From contig JABURQ010000037.1 in assembly GCA_014762625.1 (NCBI GenBank), positions 1 through 42,163 on the forward strand: a stretch of DNA of 42,163 nucleotides. The letters are read 5' to 3'. The DNA comes from Planctomycetaceae bacterium. Lineage in GTDB: Bacteria > Planctomycetota > Planctomycetia > Planctomycetales > Planctomycetaceae. Below, one piece after another: positions 5,758 to 36,967 of this stretch. How positions within the stretch are numbered: position 1 is the first letter of the stretch; each line of letters starts with the position of its first letter. The notes under the pieces were generated by a model. It did not search any database, had not been told where the DNA came from, and saw nothing but the letters and a program-made list of their open reading frames with translations. The position numbers and the translations under genes were made by a program.

Positions 5758-5859
5758 AAGATCGGAAAATGTGGAACTGTGCGGTATATTCTCGTTCTGG
5801 AATCGAGTAGAAAATAGAACATATCTCGCAGACTTCCGACCGCCACAGACTGATTCCTT

Positions 5860-32515: not shown

Positions 32516-33631
32516 ATGAAAATCACAAAGATCACCTGCTTTCCCGTACGAATTCCGCTGAAACCTGAATATCACATGATCTCCGCGCTCGGACAGCATC
32601 AGGTTTCAAAATACCTACTCGTCTCCATAGAAACCGAACGCGGGATCAATGGGGTCGGCGAAGCGACCGTGATGCCGCGCTGGAGCGGCGAAACGGTCTG
32701 GAGCGCGAAAGCGATCATCGAAGAAATCTTCGCCCCCGCGATTACGGGACTCGATACCGACGATATCGAAGGCATCTCCAAACTCATGGATCGGATGGCA
32801 ATCGGTAACTGGTTTGCGAAATCGGCGATCGAGATGGCGTTGTGGGATATTCGCGGCAAAGAACAGGATGTGCCGGTCTACGAACTTCTCGGCGGCCCGG
32901 TCCGCGACCGGACGATCACCTGCCGCTTCTCGATGGGCGCGTATCCGGTCGAACGGGCACGAACCCGCGCTCGGGAACTCGTCGAGAAAGGTTTCACCAC
33001 GATCAAAGTGAAAGTCGGGACGAATCCCGAGGAAGACGTCGCCCGCGTTCGGGCGGTTCGAGAAGCGATCGGCGACGACTACGAAATCGTCATCGATGCG
33101 AACTGCGGATTCGACGCGGATACCGCGATCGACGTTGCCCGGCAACTGGCAGACTGCAATGTCGCTCTGTTTGAACAGCCGACTCCCAGAGACGATTATG
33201 CGGGACTCGCTCGCGTGCGGGAAGCCATTGATGCCGAAGTGATGGCGGACGATATTTGTTTCGACTTGAATCAGGCACGCGAGTGTCTCAGAAACAACGC
33301 CTGCGATGTGATCAGCGTTTATCCGGGAAAGAACGCTGGCATTCGCCAGTCGATGGAAATTGCCTCACTGACGGCGGAACAGAATGTCGCCTGTTCCATC
33401 GGTTCCAATCTGGAACTCGACGTTGCCTCGGCGGCGATGTGTCATCTGGTCGTCGCGCACAAGAACATGCAAGTCGAGCGATTTCCGGGTGACATCATGG
33501 GCCCCGATTATCACTCGGTGAGCGTTGTGAAAGAGCCGCTGGTGATCGAGGGACCGACGATTACGATTACCGACCGACCCGGTTTGGGGATCGACGTCGA
33601 TTGGGATGTGGTGTCGGCCCACTTGATTTGA
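32516..33631 (+). CDS. Mandelate racemase / muconate lactonizing enzyme family protein
   Basis: The 371-residue product is an enolase-superfamily member of the MLE type. Lys164 and Lys166 (TIKVKVG) form the K-x-K base pair. Asp194, Glu220 and Asp245 are the metal ligands (VIDANCGF, LFEQPTP, MADDICF), and Lys272 (YPGKNAG) is the opposing base. The N-terminal capping domain is complete. Possible activities are cycloisomerase, dipeptide epimerase or acid-sugar dehydratase; the K-x-K and Lys272 pattern leans toward the cycloisomerase/epimerase branch. A strong terminator follows. The neighbours act on sugars, so an acid-sugar role is possible but unproven. Confidence 0.9.
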   Translation: MKITKITCFPVRIPLKPEYHMISALGQHQVSKYLLVSIETERGINGVGEATVMPRWSGETVWSAKAIIEEIFAPAITGLDTDDIEGISKLMDRMAIGNWFAKSAIEMALWDIRGKEQDVPVYELLGGPVRDRTITCRFSMGAYPVERARTRARELVEKGFTTIKVKVGTNPEEDVARVRAVREAIGDDYEIVIDANCGFDADTAIDVARQLADCNVALFEQPTPRDDYAGLARVREAIDAEVMADDICFDLNQARECLRNNACDVISVYPGKNAGIRQSMEIASLTAEQNVACSIGSNLELDVASAAMCHLVVAHKNMQVERFPGDIMGPDYHSVSVVKEPLVIEGPTITITDRPGLGIDVDWDVVSAHLI

Positions 33632-33650
33632 AAAAGCGTCCCTCAAATAG

Positions 33651-33690
33651 AAGAAGCGATCGCAAAAACTCGCGATCGCTTCTTTCTCGT
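33651..33690 (+). terminator. Intrinsic terminator after the MLE-type gene
   Basis: A perfect 13-bp stem (33651-33663 with 33672-33684, containing GCGATCGC), an 8-base loop and a T-rich tail. Read on the other strand the tail is weaker, but it could also stop transcripts from the Lys-rich gene. Confidence 0.88.
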
Positions 33691-33739
33691 TGTAGCAGAG
33701 GAGGTGAGCGAGGGGCCCACCCAAACAACCGGCAGAAGA

Positions 33740-33898
33740 TTACTTCTTCTTAGCGGTTGCTTTCTTCTTTTTAGCCGTTTTCTTTTTGGCTGTTTTCTTC
33801 TTAGCAGCTTTCTTTTTGGCTGCCTTTTTCTTAGGAGCCTTTTTCTTAGCTGCCTTCTTCTTCGTTGCCTTTTTCTTGGCTGCTTTCTTCTTAGCCAC
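33740..33898 (-). CDS. Lys/Ala-rich histone-H1-like small protein
   Basis: The 52-residue product is made almost wholly of Lys and Ala, with a five-residue rhythm of two small residues and three lysines (AAKKK, ATKKK, APKKK, TAKKK). This is the composition of the histone H1 C-terminal tail and of bacterial H1-like proteins such as HctB. It is expected to bind DNA by charge and help compact the nucleoid. The start is a GTG at 33898, with AAGGAG seven bases upstream of it; the stop TAA is at 33740-33742. The plus-strand frames over the same bases are only its hydrophobic mirror image. The gene runs from its own upstream region (33899 onwards) toward the shared terminator. Confidence 0.85.
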   Translation of the reverse strand: MAKKKAAKKKATKKKAAKKKAPKKKAAKKKAAKKKTAKKKTAKKKKATAKKK

Positions 33899-34305
33899 CT
33901 TACATCTCCTTAAAAACTACTCGGTGACATGGGAACCGCCGGCAAACCGGAAGCTGAACGGTTTCTGTTGTCACCCAAACGTGTCCAAGTCGCATCTTGT
34001 CAACCGTGACAAGTGGGCTGAGGAACAATCAAGCTTGAGGAGCGCGAATCAAAAAGGCGTTGTCTCGTTCAATGCATCATTGCTACCCAGCATTGTGATC
34101 ATCATGCTAATTTTTTTCTGAAAATCTGCAAGGCCTTTGTTTTCATTCAAGCCGTTCAAAAGCGTGACCGTTCCAAAGGTAAAACGTGTTCGTAGAAGTC
34201 TTGCTCGTACTTGCTGAGTGATGGTTGAAACAAAAATCGTGGCGCGCGTGTTCGAGCGATCTTGTTAGTGATTCAAAAACAACTGGAAATACAGTGTTAT
34301 TTTGC
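33899..34305. other. Upstream region of the Lys-rich gene
   Basis: About 400 bases without a credible protein gene. A 7-bp perfect inverted repeat CTTGTCA/TGACAAG lies at 33996-34013; on the minus strand it contains a TTGACA hexamer that could be the -35 of the Lys-rich gene, but no -10 at 17 bases is clear. Further right is A/T-rich DNA with no recognised signal. Confidence 0.4.
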
Positions 34306-34428
34306 AATCGTCGTGGTTGGTGAGCTTGGGCGTTCTTCCATCAACATCCACGCGCTCTTACACACGTTGTTTCCAACCGGGACGATTCATCAGCAAAACA
34401 GGTCGGAAATTTATTTCCGATTTTTTTT
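34306..34428 (+). ncRNA. Candidate structured small RNA ending in an intrinsic terminator
   Basis: Bases 34306-34320 pair with 34373-34387 over 15 positions, with one G-G mismatch and one G-U pair. Inside, 34322-34325 and 34330-34333 pair with 34350-34357 (GAGC/GCTC and GCGT/ACGC with a 4-base bulge). Fifteen bases further, 34403-34410 pairs with 34413-34420 and is followed by eight T (34421-34428), an intrinsic terminator on the plus strand with no protein gene in front of it. An extended -10-like TGTTATTTT lies at 34295-34303, but it would start transcription slightly inside the helix, so the true start may be upstream. It does not match tmRNA, SRP RNA or RNase P as I know them. Confidence 0.4.
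34403..34428 (+). terminator. Intrinsic terminator in a gene-free stretch
   Basis: Perfect 8-bp inverted repeat TCGGAAAT/ATTTCCGA with a very short centre, followed by eight T on the plus strand. It is correctly oriented only for a plus-strand transcript; on the minus strand it is preceded, not followed, by the A/T run. Confidence 0.75.
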
Positions 34429-34447
34429 GGAAACAAACCGACAAAAG

Positions 34448-35272
34448 TCAGTTCAACGATTCCAAAACCGTTTTCAGGTACTCGATACTCTCTTTCGCAA
34501 TCCGTTCGCAACCGGGCGAGTAATCGAAAACTTCCACCGACACCCAACCTGAGTAACCACTTTCCAACAGCGCTTTCAGGATCGGTTCGTATTGTGTCTC
34601 TCCCATCCCCGGCCCCAGCAAGTTGGTGTCGTTGACGTGAAAGTGTCCCGTGATGTCGGCGTAACGATGAATCAGTTCGGGTAGCGAATCGGTTTCCGAA
34701 CCCAACATCGCTTTCACATCCTGTTGCAAAACGAACAGCGGGTGATCGACCATCTCGATCAAACGCACTCCGTCGGCGCACGTATTCACAAAGTTGGTCT
34801 CTTTTGGAGTCAGCGGCTCCATGCAAATGCGGACGTTACGCTCCGCGATCCGCGGCATCACCTTCCGAAAGATTTCCGCCGCGTTTTCATAAGCCTGTTC
34901 CTCACTCACACCCTCTTCAAGGTTTCGTTGAAACGGCGAGCCGAACACCATCAGGTCGCCCCCGAAATCCGCACACGCCTCTCCCAGTTGAATGAGATAA
35001 TCGGCAGTCGCATCCCGGACACCCTGATCGGCGGTGGTGAGATGCAGGCCTTCGGTTTTCGCCAGCAGCCAATGCAAACCGATAATCTGTAATCCGTGAT
35101 CTTCGGCGACCTTGCGCAGTCGTTGCCGCTCTTCCGCGGAGACATCGGAAATCTTCTCGGCGAGGGTAAACGGGGCGAGTTCCAGTCCGGTATATCCCAG
35201 TTCGGCGGAGAACTGACATTGTCGTTCCCAGGGCCAGTCTTCGTACAGTTCCTGACAGATGGCGAATTTCAT
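34448..35272 (-). CDS. Sugar phosphate isomerase/epimerase (AP endonuclease family 2 fold)
   Basis: The 274-residue product is a xylose-isomerase-like TIM barrel. It opens with FAICQELYEDWPWERQCQF, then has YTGLELAPFTL, IIGLHWLLAKTEGLH, the metal-ligand Glu in RICMEPLTPKETNF, GHFHVNDTN with its His pair, and the last Glu in WVSVEVFDYSPGCE. Members include hydroxypyruvate isomerase, ketose 3-epimerases and inositol-pathway enzymes, and the substrate cannot be told here. The ATG has GAGGA seven bases upstream. It is cytoplasmic. The neighbouring xylulokinase and MLE-type genes fit a carbohydrate-use setting, but they are on the opposite strand. Confidence 0.88.
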   Translation of the reverse strand: MKFAICQELYEDWPWERQCQFSAELGYTGLELAPFTLAEKISDVSAEERQRLRKVAEDHGLQIIGLHWLLAKTEGLHLTTADQGVRDATADYLIQLGEACADFGGDLMVFGSPFQRNLEEGVSEEQAYENAAEIFRKVMPRIAERNVRICMEPLTPKETNFVNTCADGVRLIEMVDHPLFVLQQDVKAMLGSETDSLPELIHRYADITGHFHVNDTNLLGPGMGETQYEPILKALLESGYSGWVSVEVFDYSPGCERIAKESIEYLKTVLESLN

Positions 35273-35650
35273 CGTCGAATCCTCGTGAAAATCCTCTGCG
35301 CGCGGAGGAAAGATTAGGTGCTCAGAATAATCGGCAACAATTGCCGGTCTTCAAGAGAGTAGCAGGAAACGAGACGGGATTCGAGGTTGTCAAAACGACG
35401 ATTCGTCCAACCTCAAACAATCCTTCGCGGGCGAAGTTTTCCCCTAGGTCGGCGTGTGACGATTTTTCGGGAATGCAGCTTGTTCGAGTCGTCGAAAATA
35501 GAGCCGAGATATTCTTTTTGAGGAATCGATGCAGAACTGAGTGTGAAACGGTCGAAGAAAGATAATGTCGGAAACTCCACACAGAGGAGAGGTTCCGTCA
35601 TGGATTGATCAATCTCATCGATGGACTCAGAAGAACTGAGGAACAAGGCT
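35273..35650. other. Divergent promoter region before the cysteine-rich gene
   Basis: About 380 bases between the isomerase and the Cys-rich protein gene. It holds a perfect 6-bp inverted repeat CGGCAA/TTGCCG at 35333-35347 (centre of 3), a possible regulator site, and a TCCTC/GAGGA pair near 35293-35310. I see no well-spaced promoter. Confidence 0.4.
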
Positions 35651-36967
35651 ATGAAACGCCTCTTCGGAATCACAATTGCTTTGACGTTGCTGGCCGCCTG
35701 GGGAACGACTCAAGCTCACGCCGGTTACTGCGGTGCCGCCAGTTACAATAACTGTCCCGACTCCGATATCATTCCCTGCGGATTGTTCTGCGAAGCGCGC
35801 GATTGCTGCGTCGAATACAAGGTTGTCAAAGAGACGATCTGGGAAACTCAGAACTACACCGAAAAAGTCAAAGTTTACGATACGATCGTCGAACAGGTTC
35901 CCGTCACCTGCAAAAAGAAAGTCTACGAGACCTGCTATCGTCCCGAGACGGTCAAATGCAAACGCAAAGTCTATCAAACCTGCTACAAAGAAAAGTGCGT
36001 CAAAACCAAGCGGCCGGTCTACAAGACCTGCTACAAGGAAAAGTGCGTTAAAACCAAACGCCCCTGTTACAAGACGACTTACAAAGACGTCTGTTACACC
36101 GTCAAAAAGCCGGTTTACAAAACCTGCTACAAAGAGAAGTGTGTGAAGACGAAACGTCCGTGCTACAAAACCACGTACTGCGAAGTCAGCACCACCACCT
36201 TCAAGACCCACTACGAGACCTGTTACAAGGATGTCTGTTACACCACTTGCAAACCCGTCCATTACACCAAGGAAGTGGATGTCTGCTGCGGCGAGTGGAA
36301 AACTGTGATGGATCCCGGCTGTGCCGCTCCCGCCGATTGCACCGCCGACGGAATGAACCACTCTTCCGTCAGTTCGAGTTCCGGATCACACGGCAATGGA
36401 CTCTGCCGCAAAGTGTGGGTCCCGAAAGTCGTCAAGAAAACGGTCAATTGCACTCGCTACGAACAACAGGTTTGCCACAAGAAAGTTCCTTACACCGTCT
36501 GTCGTAAGGTTCCCTGCACGGTGACCAAGAAAGTTCCCAAAACCAGTTGCACTTGGGTGGAAGAATGCAAAATCGTCAAAATTCCCCACACCACCTGCGA
36601 CTGGGTGAAAGAACGCTGCACCAAGCGAGTTCCCAAGACGACCTGCACTTGGGTGGAAGAATGTAAGACGGTTCGCGTTCCTTATACGACCTGTAACTGG
36701 GTCGAAGAATGCAAAACCATCAAAGTTCCCTACACCACCTGCAAGACCATTGAAGAGTGCAAAACACGCATGGTCCCTTACACCAAATGCCGCACGGTCT
36801 GCGAAACGAAGTTCAAAACCGTCTGCAAGAAAGTGCCGCGTGAAGTCTGTGTGACGAAAACCCGGTGCGTGCCGCGGACCGTCTGTCGCAAGATTCCCGT
36901 CGATCCCGGTTGCTGTGCTCCTCAGGAAGCGACCTGTGCGGCGCCGAACGACGGCTGCGTGCAGTAA
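35651..36967 (+). CDS. Secreted cysteine-rich 16-residue-repeat protein (YTV-like)
   Basis: The 438-residue product, started at ATG 35651 (GAGGA upstream), has a signal peptide ending AHA-GYC. The mature protein is very rich in Cys, Lys, Thr, Val and Tyr. It has two blocks of 16-residue repeats: four of the type VYKTCYKEKCVKTKRP near 107-170 and six of the type KVPYTTCNWVEECKT near 294-389. Between them is a Ser/Gly-rich spacer. VPYTVCRKV and similar segments recall the YTV domain of Rhodopirellula, whose members were proposed as cross-linked cell-wall proteins. The regularly placed cysteines could make disulfide networks. It is probably a surface structural protein; this is inference from composition and the YTV resemblance. 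Confidence 0.82.
   Translation: MKRLFGITIALTLLAAWGTTQAHAGYCGAASYNNCPDSDIIPCGLFCEARDCCVEYKVVKETIWETQNYTEKVKVYDTIVEQVPVTCKKKVYETCYRPETVKCKRKVYQTCYKEKCVKTKRPVYKTCYKEKCVKTKRPCYKTTYKDVCYTVKKPVYKTCYKEKCVKTKRPCYKTTYCEVSTTTFKTHYETCYKDVCYTTCKPVHYTKEVDVCCGEWKTVMDPGCAAPADCTADGMNHSSVSSSSGSHGNGLCRKVWVPKVVKKTVNCTRYEQQVCHKKVPYTVCRKVPCTVTKKVPKTSCTWVEECKIVKIPHTTCDWVKERCTKRVPKTTCTWVEECKTVRVPYTTCNWVEECKTIKVPYTTCKTIEECKTRMVPYTKCRTVCETKFKTVCKKVPREVCVTKTRCVPRTVCRKIPVDPGCCAPQEATCAAPNDGCVQ
35969..36160 (+). repeat. Four 48-base units in the Cys-rich gene
   Basis: Exact 48-base phasing: 35969, 36017, 36065 and 36113, with a fifth partial unit from 36161. Units 1, 2 and 4 encode nearly the same peptide; unit 3 and the partial fifth are the variant beginning CYKTTY. 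Confidence 0.85.
36530..36817 (+). repeat. Six 48-base units in the Cys-rich gene
   Basis: Units start at 36530, 36578, 36626, 36674, 36722 and 36770 and encode a 16-residue repeat with the core VPxTTCxWVEECKT. It is a different repeat class from the first block but has the same length. Confidence 0.85.

Follow-up and report, generated by a model that had tools for sequence, protein, structure and literature searches.

The locus examined here raises the question of whether a very short reading frame composed almost entirely of lysine and alanine is a gene at all and, if it is, what its product might do and how its amount might be set. The window, i.e., the whole stretch of 42,163 nucleotides that we analysed, carried an initial annotation of a 52-codon, nearly pure Lys/Ala gene on the minus strand at 33740–33898 with a GTG start; both sequence and coordinates are as claimed, the product being MAKKKAAKKKATKKKAAKKKAPKKKAAKKKAAKKKTAKKKTAKKKKATAKKK (52 codons followed by TAA), with 31 Lys, 15 Ala and zero acidic residues. 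The AAGGAG ribosome site named in that annotation is likewise present, 7 nt before the GTG. The features of the locus to which we refer are the following.

33740–33898, minus strand: Lys/Ala micro-gene of 52 aa, GTG start at 33896–33898 and TAA stop at 33740–33742, with same-locus orthologues in both congeners
33906–33911, minus strand: Shine-Dalgarno (SD) sequence AAGGAG, 7 nt from the GTG
33893–34018, minus strand: structured 5' leader (P1, P2, SD region and first codons), the whole match of model R1, 61.0 bits
33923–33975, minus strand: hairpin P2, bulged, with outer stem GGTGAC/GTCACC and inner stem AACCG/CGGTT, from a predicted fold
33996–34013, minus strand: hairpin P1, CTTGTCA-CGGT-TGACAAG, from a predicted fold and covariation
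34086–34091, minus strand: 5' arm GCTGGG of a possible long-range helix P0, with partner CTCAGC at 34017–34022
33651–33684, minus strand: terminator-like hairpin of 15 bp with a loop of 4, z -5.15 for the 96-nt stretch
34448–35272, minus strand: xylose-isomerase-like TIM-barrel protein, co-directional upstream neighbour (Pfam PF01261, E 8.3e-42)
32516–33631, plus strand: muconate-cycloisomerase / mandelate-racemase-like enzyme, convergent downstream neighbour, in the same place in both congeners
35621–36967, plus strand: YTV-repeat protein, 448 aa, Cys/Lys/Thr-rich, beyond the isomerase on the opposite strand

What would speak for an artefact, be it a chance low-complexity ORF, a product of DNA repetition or the reverse reading of a hydrophobic gene on the plus strand, is the low complexity itself together with two overlapping plus-strand ORFs, at 33704–33913 (69 aa) and 33786–34121 (111 aa). 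The initial annotation had warned that this mirror frame could be annotated instead, and the plus-strand ORFs do exist, but the SD, start, leader and terminator all lie on the minus strand, both in the window and in relatives. As DNA, the micro-gene is a loose 15-nt repeat only (the 15-nt rows match by 75–81%), and its codons are AAG (20), AAA (11), GCT (7), GCA (5) and GCC (3); since the codons are mixed and the DNA repeat is loose, the repeat in the protein is more than the outcome of DNA repeat expansion. In a six-frame scan of the whole stretch (30583 stop-free 50-residue windows) the micro-ORF reached 45 K+A per 50 residues, the highest value outside its own windows being 18. In its own genome we found the protein and the leader in a single copy each. 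A search for frame breaks in close relatives, which the initial annotation had in view, found the gene intact and in frame in both congeners (L042 of genome G001 and L043 of G002), where it occupies the same place with the same neighbours, the same GTG and the same SD. The congener products are 59 and 43 aa long, with the length differences in frame, and in three pairwise comparisons 18 of 24, 11 of 16 and 8 of 10 nucleotide differences fell at third codon positions (counts from an approximate alignment of the repeats); read in the mirror frame, such a change within a Lys codon (AAA/AAG) exchanges Phe and Leu. On the basis of the in-frame congener orthologues, the third-position changes and the loose DNA repeat we rejected a plus-strand gene, a chance ORF and a DNA-repeat artefact, and with synteny conserved alongside the minus-strand signals the probability left to any artefact is negligible. 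The micro-gene is real and the finding is larger than first stated; what we infer concerns its function and mechanism.

The surroundings of the micro-ORF are shared among relatives, which shows orthology. The TIM-barrel isomerase lies upstream on the same strand, 271–1255 nt off, in 23 of 33 neighbourhoods (the window and one congener included) and is missing from 10; these 33 were drawn from 40, the seven omitted being second loci, other places in the window's own genome or near-duplicates. Beyond the isomerase, on the other strand, a YTV-type gene stands in 11 of the 33. The planctomycete setting assumed at the outset proved correct, the closest named relatives being Planctomycetota and Planctomycetaceae MAGs and a YTV-repeat gene lying nearby. 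Downstream of the micro-gene the terminator-like hairpin is nearly identical in both congeners, and such a hairpin occurs within 150 nt in 55 of 65 relatives versus a mean of 1.4 in base shuffles; a consensus terminator scan did not list the 33651–33684 hairpin. With leader, ORF and terminator in series, the three look like one transcription unit. Sigma-70-type promoters upstream of P1 were not enriched (8 of 48 loci versus 11.3 in base shuffles), and a promoter scan of 33400–34600 returned none. By eye, TTGCAG-16-TAGCAT near 34142–34113 on the minus strand is a possible promoter that resembles stretches preceding the leader in a few relatives, L134 and L087 among them.

The most informative part of the locus is the folded leader, which, like the terminator and the family-wide distribution, is absent from the earlier note. 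Alignment of upstream regions gave the order P1 (with a CANGGTTG-type loop), linker, long P2 with a GCCCGG apical loop, and SD. Among 68 aligned leaders the SD region contains AGGA in 65, GGAG in 62 and GGAGG in 48, and the P2 apical loop is GCCCGG in 61; the window has TTCCGG instead. The window's leader is diverged, at 61 bits versus 118 for the best leader, and it folds with an ordinary energy (z -1.15); the predicted pair probability of its P2 is near 1. It matches the covariance model R1 with an E-value of 7.9e-13 in its own genome, and R3, a model without SD and start codon, matches 33922–34018 of the window (E 1.9e-7), the window leader being itself among the 28 sequences on which R1 and R3 were trained. 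Taken jointly, 66 loci support the long-range helix P0 (Wilcoxon p 6e-9, against a rough control in which shuffles move two-base blocks), 30 of them individually at p up to 0.1; the window itself gives it no support (p 0.52). Upstream of P1, six loci (L137, L126, L187, L188, L189 and L216) share a block TGTCAAG..., often followed by GCTGCCG; its position inside the stretch that P0 would enclose suggests a further leader domain.

Covariation was assessed on A1, a MAFFT-only alignment of 28 leaders tested against a named structure of 24 pairs. From the 53 leaders collected, eight were omitted (seven near-duplicates and L055), 13 had no match to the P1 expression, and L014, L057, L008 and L080 were dropped afterwards; a later model search matched 12 of the 13 leaders dropped for the P1 expression, the exception being L144. 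The covariation score of A1 was 0.384 versus 0.212 in shuffles, 80.3% of its cells were paired versus 70.4%, and 91 cells carried changes on both sides versus 32.5, with none of 500 shuffles as high on any of these measures or on the number of pair types; pairs with a both-side change numbered 16 versus 12.1, a value that 18 of 500 shuffles reached, and structures slid along A1 scored 0.05–0.14. By element, both-side (compensatory) changes were found in 8 of 10 pairs of P1 (92% of cells paired), 2 of 5 pairs of the outer P2 stem (82%) and 6 of 9 pairs of the inner P2 stem, where only 63% of cells paired. The alignment of 68 leaders was fitted to the model, which biases its counts in favour of that model: both-side changes appeared in 23 of 24 pairs (18.1 on average in shuffles) and 87.7% of cells were paired. 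The A1 count was made without the model. Comparison among relatives shows coding sequence maintained in the ORF and a conserved RNA fold in the leader.

A search of Rfam 15 (4227 families) gave no gathering-score match at window positions 33600–34450, at 16 other loci or at 5800–6350 of L137, which has the best leader, and no weak match fell on any leader in these regions. Our literature search gave no pointer to a leader of such a gene type or to the micro-gene, most subscription journals lying outside its coverage, and a term search of the text of a planctomycete proteome paper found nothing on histone-like proteins (PMC8567305). A table in the accessible part of PMC2864571 (Weinberg 2010) has a Rhodopirellula-1 RNA motif, without an Rfam number, from Proteobacteria and Planctomycetes. 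As far as Rfam 15 and the literature searched go, the leader would represent a new RNA family, unless it should be identical with the Rhodopirellula-1 motif.

To find the gene elsewhere, the protein is a poor query: a protein search matched 9 of 59 genomes, missing most orthologues, and several of its matches were tails of other proteins. A similarity search with leader DNA reached the genus only (3 of 170 family genomes). At the DNA level the pattern [V/M]AKKK[A/T][A/T]K was present in 75 of the 170 versus one reversed-control match; some matches are Lys/Ala extensions of other proteins, and many of those with a GTG start and a GGAG-type SD are stand-alone micro-ORFs of 20–189 aa (L134, at 18 codons, is truncated by a contig end). 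A looser pattern reached at least 132 of 170 genomes and many other proteins; because of these, and of scattered reversed-control matches, it was not used as a count. Covariance model R1 matched at least 148 of 170 family genomes (E up to 0.01) and is, set beside the protein search (on a different sample), a practical tag for the gene. Among the matches listed, 145 of the 148 genomes have a single R1 match and three a weak second one, and 22 of the 170 have none, both incomplete MAGs and near-complete ones (G008 and G184 among them). We fetched 39 R1 sites, mainly from genomes without a stand-alone ORF already found, and at the R1 end a Lys/Ala ORF begins in all 36 of the primary sites (one of these ORFs being truncated where its contig stops) and in none of the three secondary sites. 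As R1 includes the SD and start, we built R3 from P1–P2 alone; it matched 114 of 170 genomes. Comparing the two lists by eye, we saw its sites coincide with those of R1, two weak extras (G167:C79 and G133:C30) apart. R1, R2 and R3 were trained on family loci (28, 68 and 28, respectively), so part of the family matches arise by construction. In G184 a 189-aa GTG-started Lys/Ala ORF stands behind the isomerase (L144) and its upstream region has no R1 match, so the gene can exist without a recognisable leader. Judged from these genome sequences, leader and Lys/Ala ORF go together.

Model R2 matched 122 of 397 class genomes. The family accounts for 114; the other eight matches are weak, seven of them preceding GTG-started Lys/Ala micro-ORFs and one an apparently acyl-carrier-like protein. 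R2 contains the SD and GTGGC, so such sites are favoured. A weak second R2 match in G016 had no Lys/Ala ORF. The pattern AGGAGG...GTG GCN AAR AAR AAR occurred in 69 of the 397 class genomes, and of the 19 outside-family loci that we read (one per genome, some identical to those found by R2) 18 were Lys/Ala micro-ORFs of 21–110 aa and one was a 374-aa protein; GCCCGG lay upstream in five. The micro-gene pattern had no match in f2, f3 and f5, which are large families of the class, and in a phylum sample it was present in 20 of 226 genomes, nine of them in the family.

The leader-linked proteins are uniform in character and variable in length. The 66 that are complete (of 68 loci, the other two running off contig ends) span 19–125 aa, with a median of 50.5, and start with GTG (50) or ATG (16); their N-terminus is MAKKK or MAKKA in 64, so that the repeat begins at the very start. 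Their overall composition is 50.2% K, 34.1% A, 5.2% T, 4.2% P and 3.8% V, with no D or E in any and, as the sole aromatic residue, one F in one protein. The H1-tail-like composition proposed for the window's product is thus borne out across the set, and the five-residue rhythm seen by eye reappears as a lysine autocorrelation peak at lag 5 (0.53). A Pfam and NCBIfam profile search with the 52-aa product returned no family at E up to 1, a weak test given that composition-biased queries are penalised, and the same bias weakens the lack of a match to the Hc2 (HctB) family profile in these collections. PF00216 (HU / Bac_DNA_binding) was absent from the product in the Pfam search and present at two other places in the same genome. 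These are HU-type genes, and a polycation would thus find a nucleoid system in which to act. One HU-type protein, L278 (G000:C1:3213-3482), has a long C-terminal tail rich in Pro, Ser and Ala, not Lys/Ala.

Lysine/alanine stretches also occur on unrelated proteins of the family. N-terminal extensions of the MAKKKAAKK... kind are carried by L061-L064 and L078, which we take to be PheA-like, by the presumably XseB-like L065-L067 and PutA-like L069-L073, and by L053, apparently protease-like. L004 and L005 are long proteins with Lys/Ala tails of the same kind that seem to us to resemble topoisomerase I; L002, L006 and L029 have in common a short conserved protein (GPIVRTGTTPEFWKNWD..., in L029 a variant) with a Lys/Ala tail whose composition varies. 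The protein at L147 (G000:C113), presumably GroES-like, starts MAKKKSKG.

A candidate start-hiding helix between the P2 3' arm and GTGGC is complementary in 84% of cells, versus 26–49% when slid, and this is barely above column shuffles (83.3%, with 35–43 of 500 as high); the helix reaches a probability of 0.5 in 7 of 68 folds only. Start codons are predicted to pair no more often here than those of ordinary genes nearby (53 of 68 versus 36 of 54, with a median of 0.63 in either set). An alternation of the P2 3' arm between P2 and the GTG start is therefore weakly supported by these predicted folds, and the idea that the GTG start is kept through pairing with P2 is weakened by shuffles, folds and control genes alike.

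Taking the evidence together, we think it probable, though well short of certain, that this is a single-copy, monocistronic gene of leader, ORF and terminator, whose H1-tail-like polycation helps to pack the nucleoid in a dose set by the leader. Without acidic residues or a folded domain, the polycation would act in the manner of an H1 tail or of chlamydial Hc2, neutralising the backbones of nucleic acids and bridging them, and would in this way help to pack the nucleoid; the leader would set its amount by hiding or exposing the SD and start codon. As to the signal, our first guess would be feedback, the polycation binding its own leader, and our next a small ligand or an sRNA.

H1-tail-like proteins are known best as DNA binders, which speaks against a target other than DNA; composition alone does not separate DNA from RNA or polyphosphate as the target, and the sequence holds nothing in favour of DNA. 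That the polycation acts mainly on RNA, ribosomes or polyphosphate is accordingly a possibility to be taken seriously, if on the unlikely side, and it has precedents: the parts of PMC2848022 available to us give Hc2 an RNA affinity above that of Hc1 and a stronger repression of translation, and those of PMC9239181 describe AlgP as organising polyphosphate granules. Turning to the leader, a metabolite or ion riboswitch with the polycation gene as its sole target, and a ligand tied to nucleic-acid charge (polyamines or magnesium, for instance), would fit the riboswitch-like build (conserved loops, a possible further domain closed by P0) and the lack of an Rfam match. Most riboswitch classes govern several gene types, whereas this leader precedes one gene type at the inspected sites and usually occurs once per genome, and we regard a riboswitch of this kind as unlikely. 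A fold kept while protein length ranges so widely, usually in one copy per genome, might instead be read as a small RNA that is itself the functional product, with the micro-ORF a minor passenger; this we find highly improbable, given an SD and start in constant position where the fold ends, an ORF at every inspected primary site, the lack of D and E in all 66 complete ORFs and congener codons that vary mainly at third positions.

A bolder version of the packing model, which we put forward tentatively and consider doubtful, is that the leader belongs to an undescribed class, usually single-copy and nearly universal in the family, that senses nucleic-acid charge or packing (through the polycation, polyamines or metal ions) and doses a minimal H1-tail protein; if true, it would be an RNA-level thermostat of chromosome compaction. 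If the leader does switch translation, the way in which the dose of the polycation is controlled can be put to the test. Condensed nucleoids are a known trait of planctomycetes, and an easily missed gene (short, of low complexity and mostly with a GTG start) is a concrete candidate for nucleoid condensation in the family studied. The accessible portion of PMC3440768 leaves room for an unknown condensing protein in planctomycetes. The candidate role may not extend to Gemmata, given the families f2, f3 and f5 in which the pattern found no match.

Among the closest known systems are the chlamydial histone-like proteins; Chlamydiae and Planctomycetes both belong to the PVC superphylum. The likeness to Hc2 (HctB) and its Bordetella/Burkholderia-type relatives is the lysine-rich five-residue repeat: as described in the sections of PMC2848022 that we could consult, Hc2 is built from lysine-rich pentamers in which charged residues are combined for the most part with Ala, besides Val, Thr and Pro, and its length varies by whole repeats. 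In the same partial account Hc2 measures 165–237 aa, each pentamer contains two charged residues and the non-repeat flanks are conserved, whereas the proteins here are shorter, all repeat and about half lysine. Histone-like HctA (Hc1) offers a likeness, proposed here, of a polycation restrained at the RNA level: according to the available part of PMC3469542, the sRNA IhtA acts on hctA mRNA and holds HctA back, and E. coli does not survive expression of HctA; on these grounds it is plausible that the dose of a polycation should be controlled. From that excerpt IhtA works in trans, whereas the conserved fold of our leader is part of the mRNA itself, in cis, and may be repressive. The C-terminal tails of AlgP and PhaF in Pseudomonas, as far as the text accessible to us describes them, are likewise disordered Lys/Ala(/Pro) repeats, and peptides of the Lys/Pro/Ala tail of AlgP bind DNA (PMC9239181, in part); those tails sit on a folded N-terminal domain and repeat KPAA, whereas the proteins here lack a folded domain and contain 4% proline. 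With riboswitches and ribosomal-protein leaders the leader shares a conserved multi-hairpin fold directly before the SD and start of one gene, and differs in matching no Rfam 15 family at gathering score. Lastly, with histone H1-like tail proteins the product shares a K/A/P-rich polycation free of acidic residues and, but for that one F, of aromatic ones; it belongs with the bacterial H1-like tails by character rather than by tested homology.
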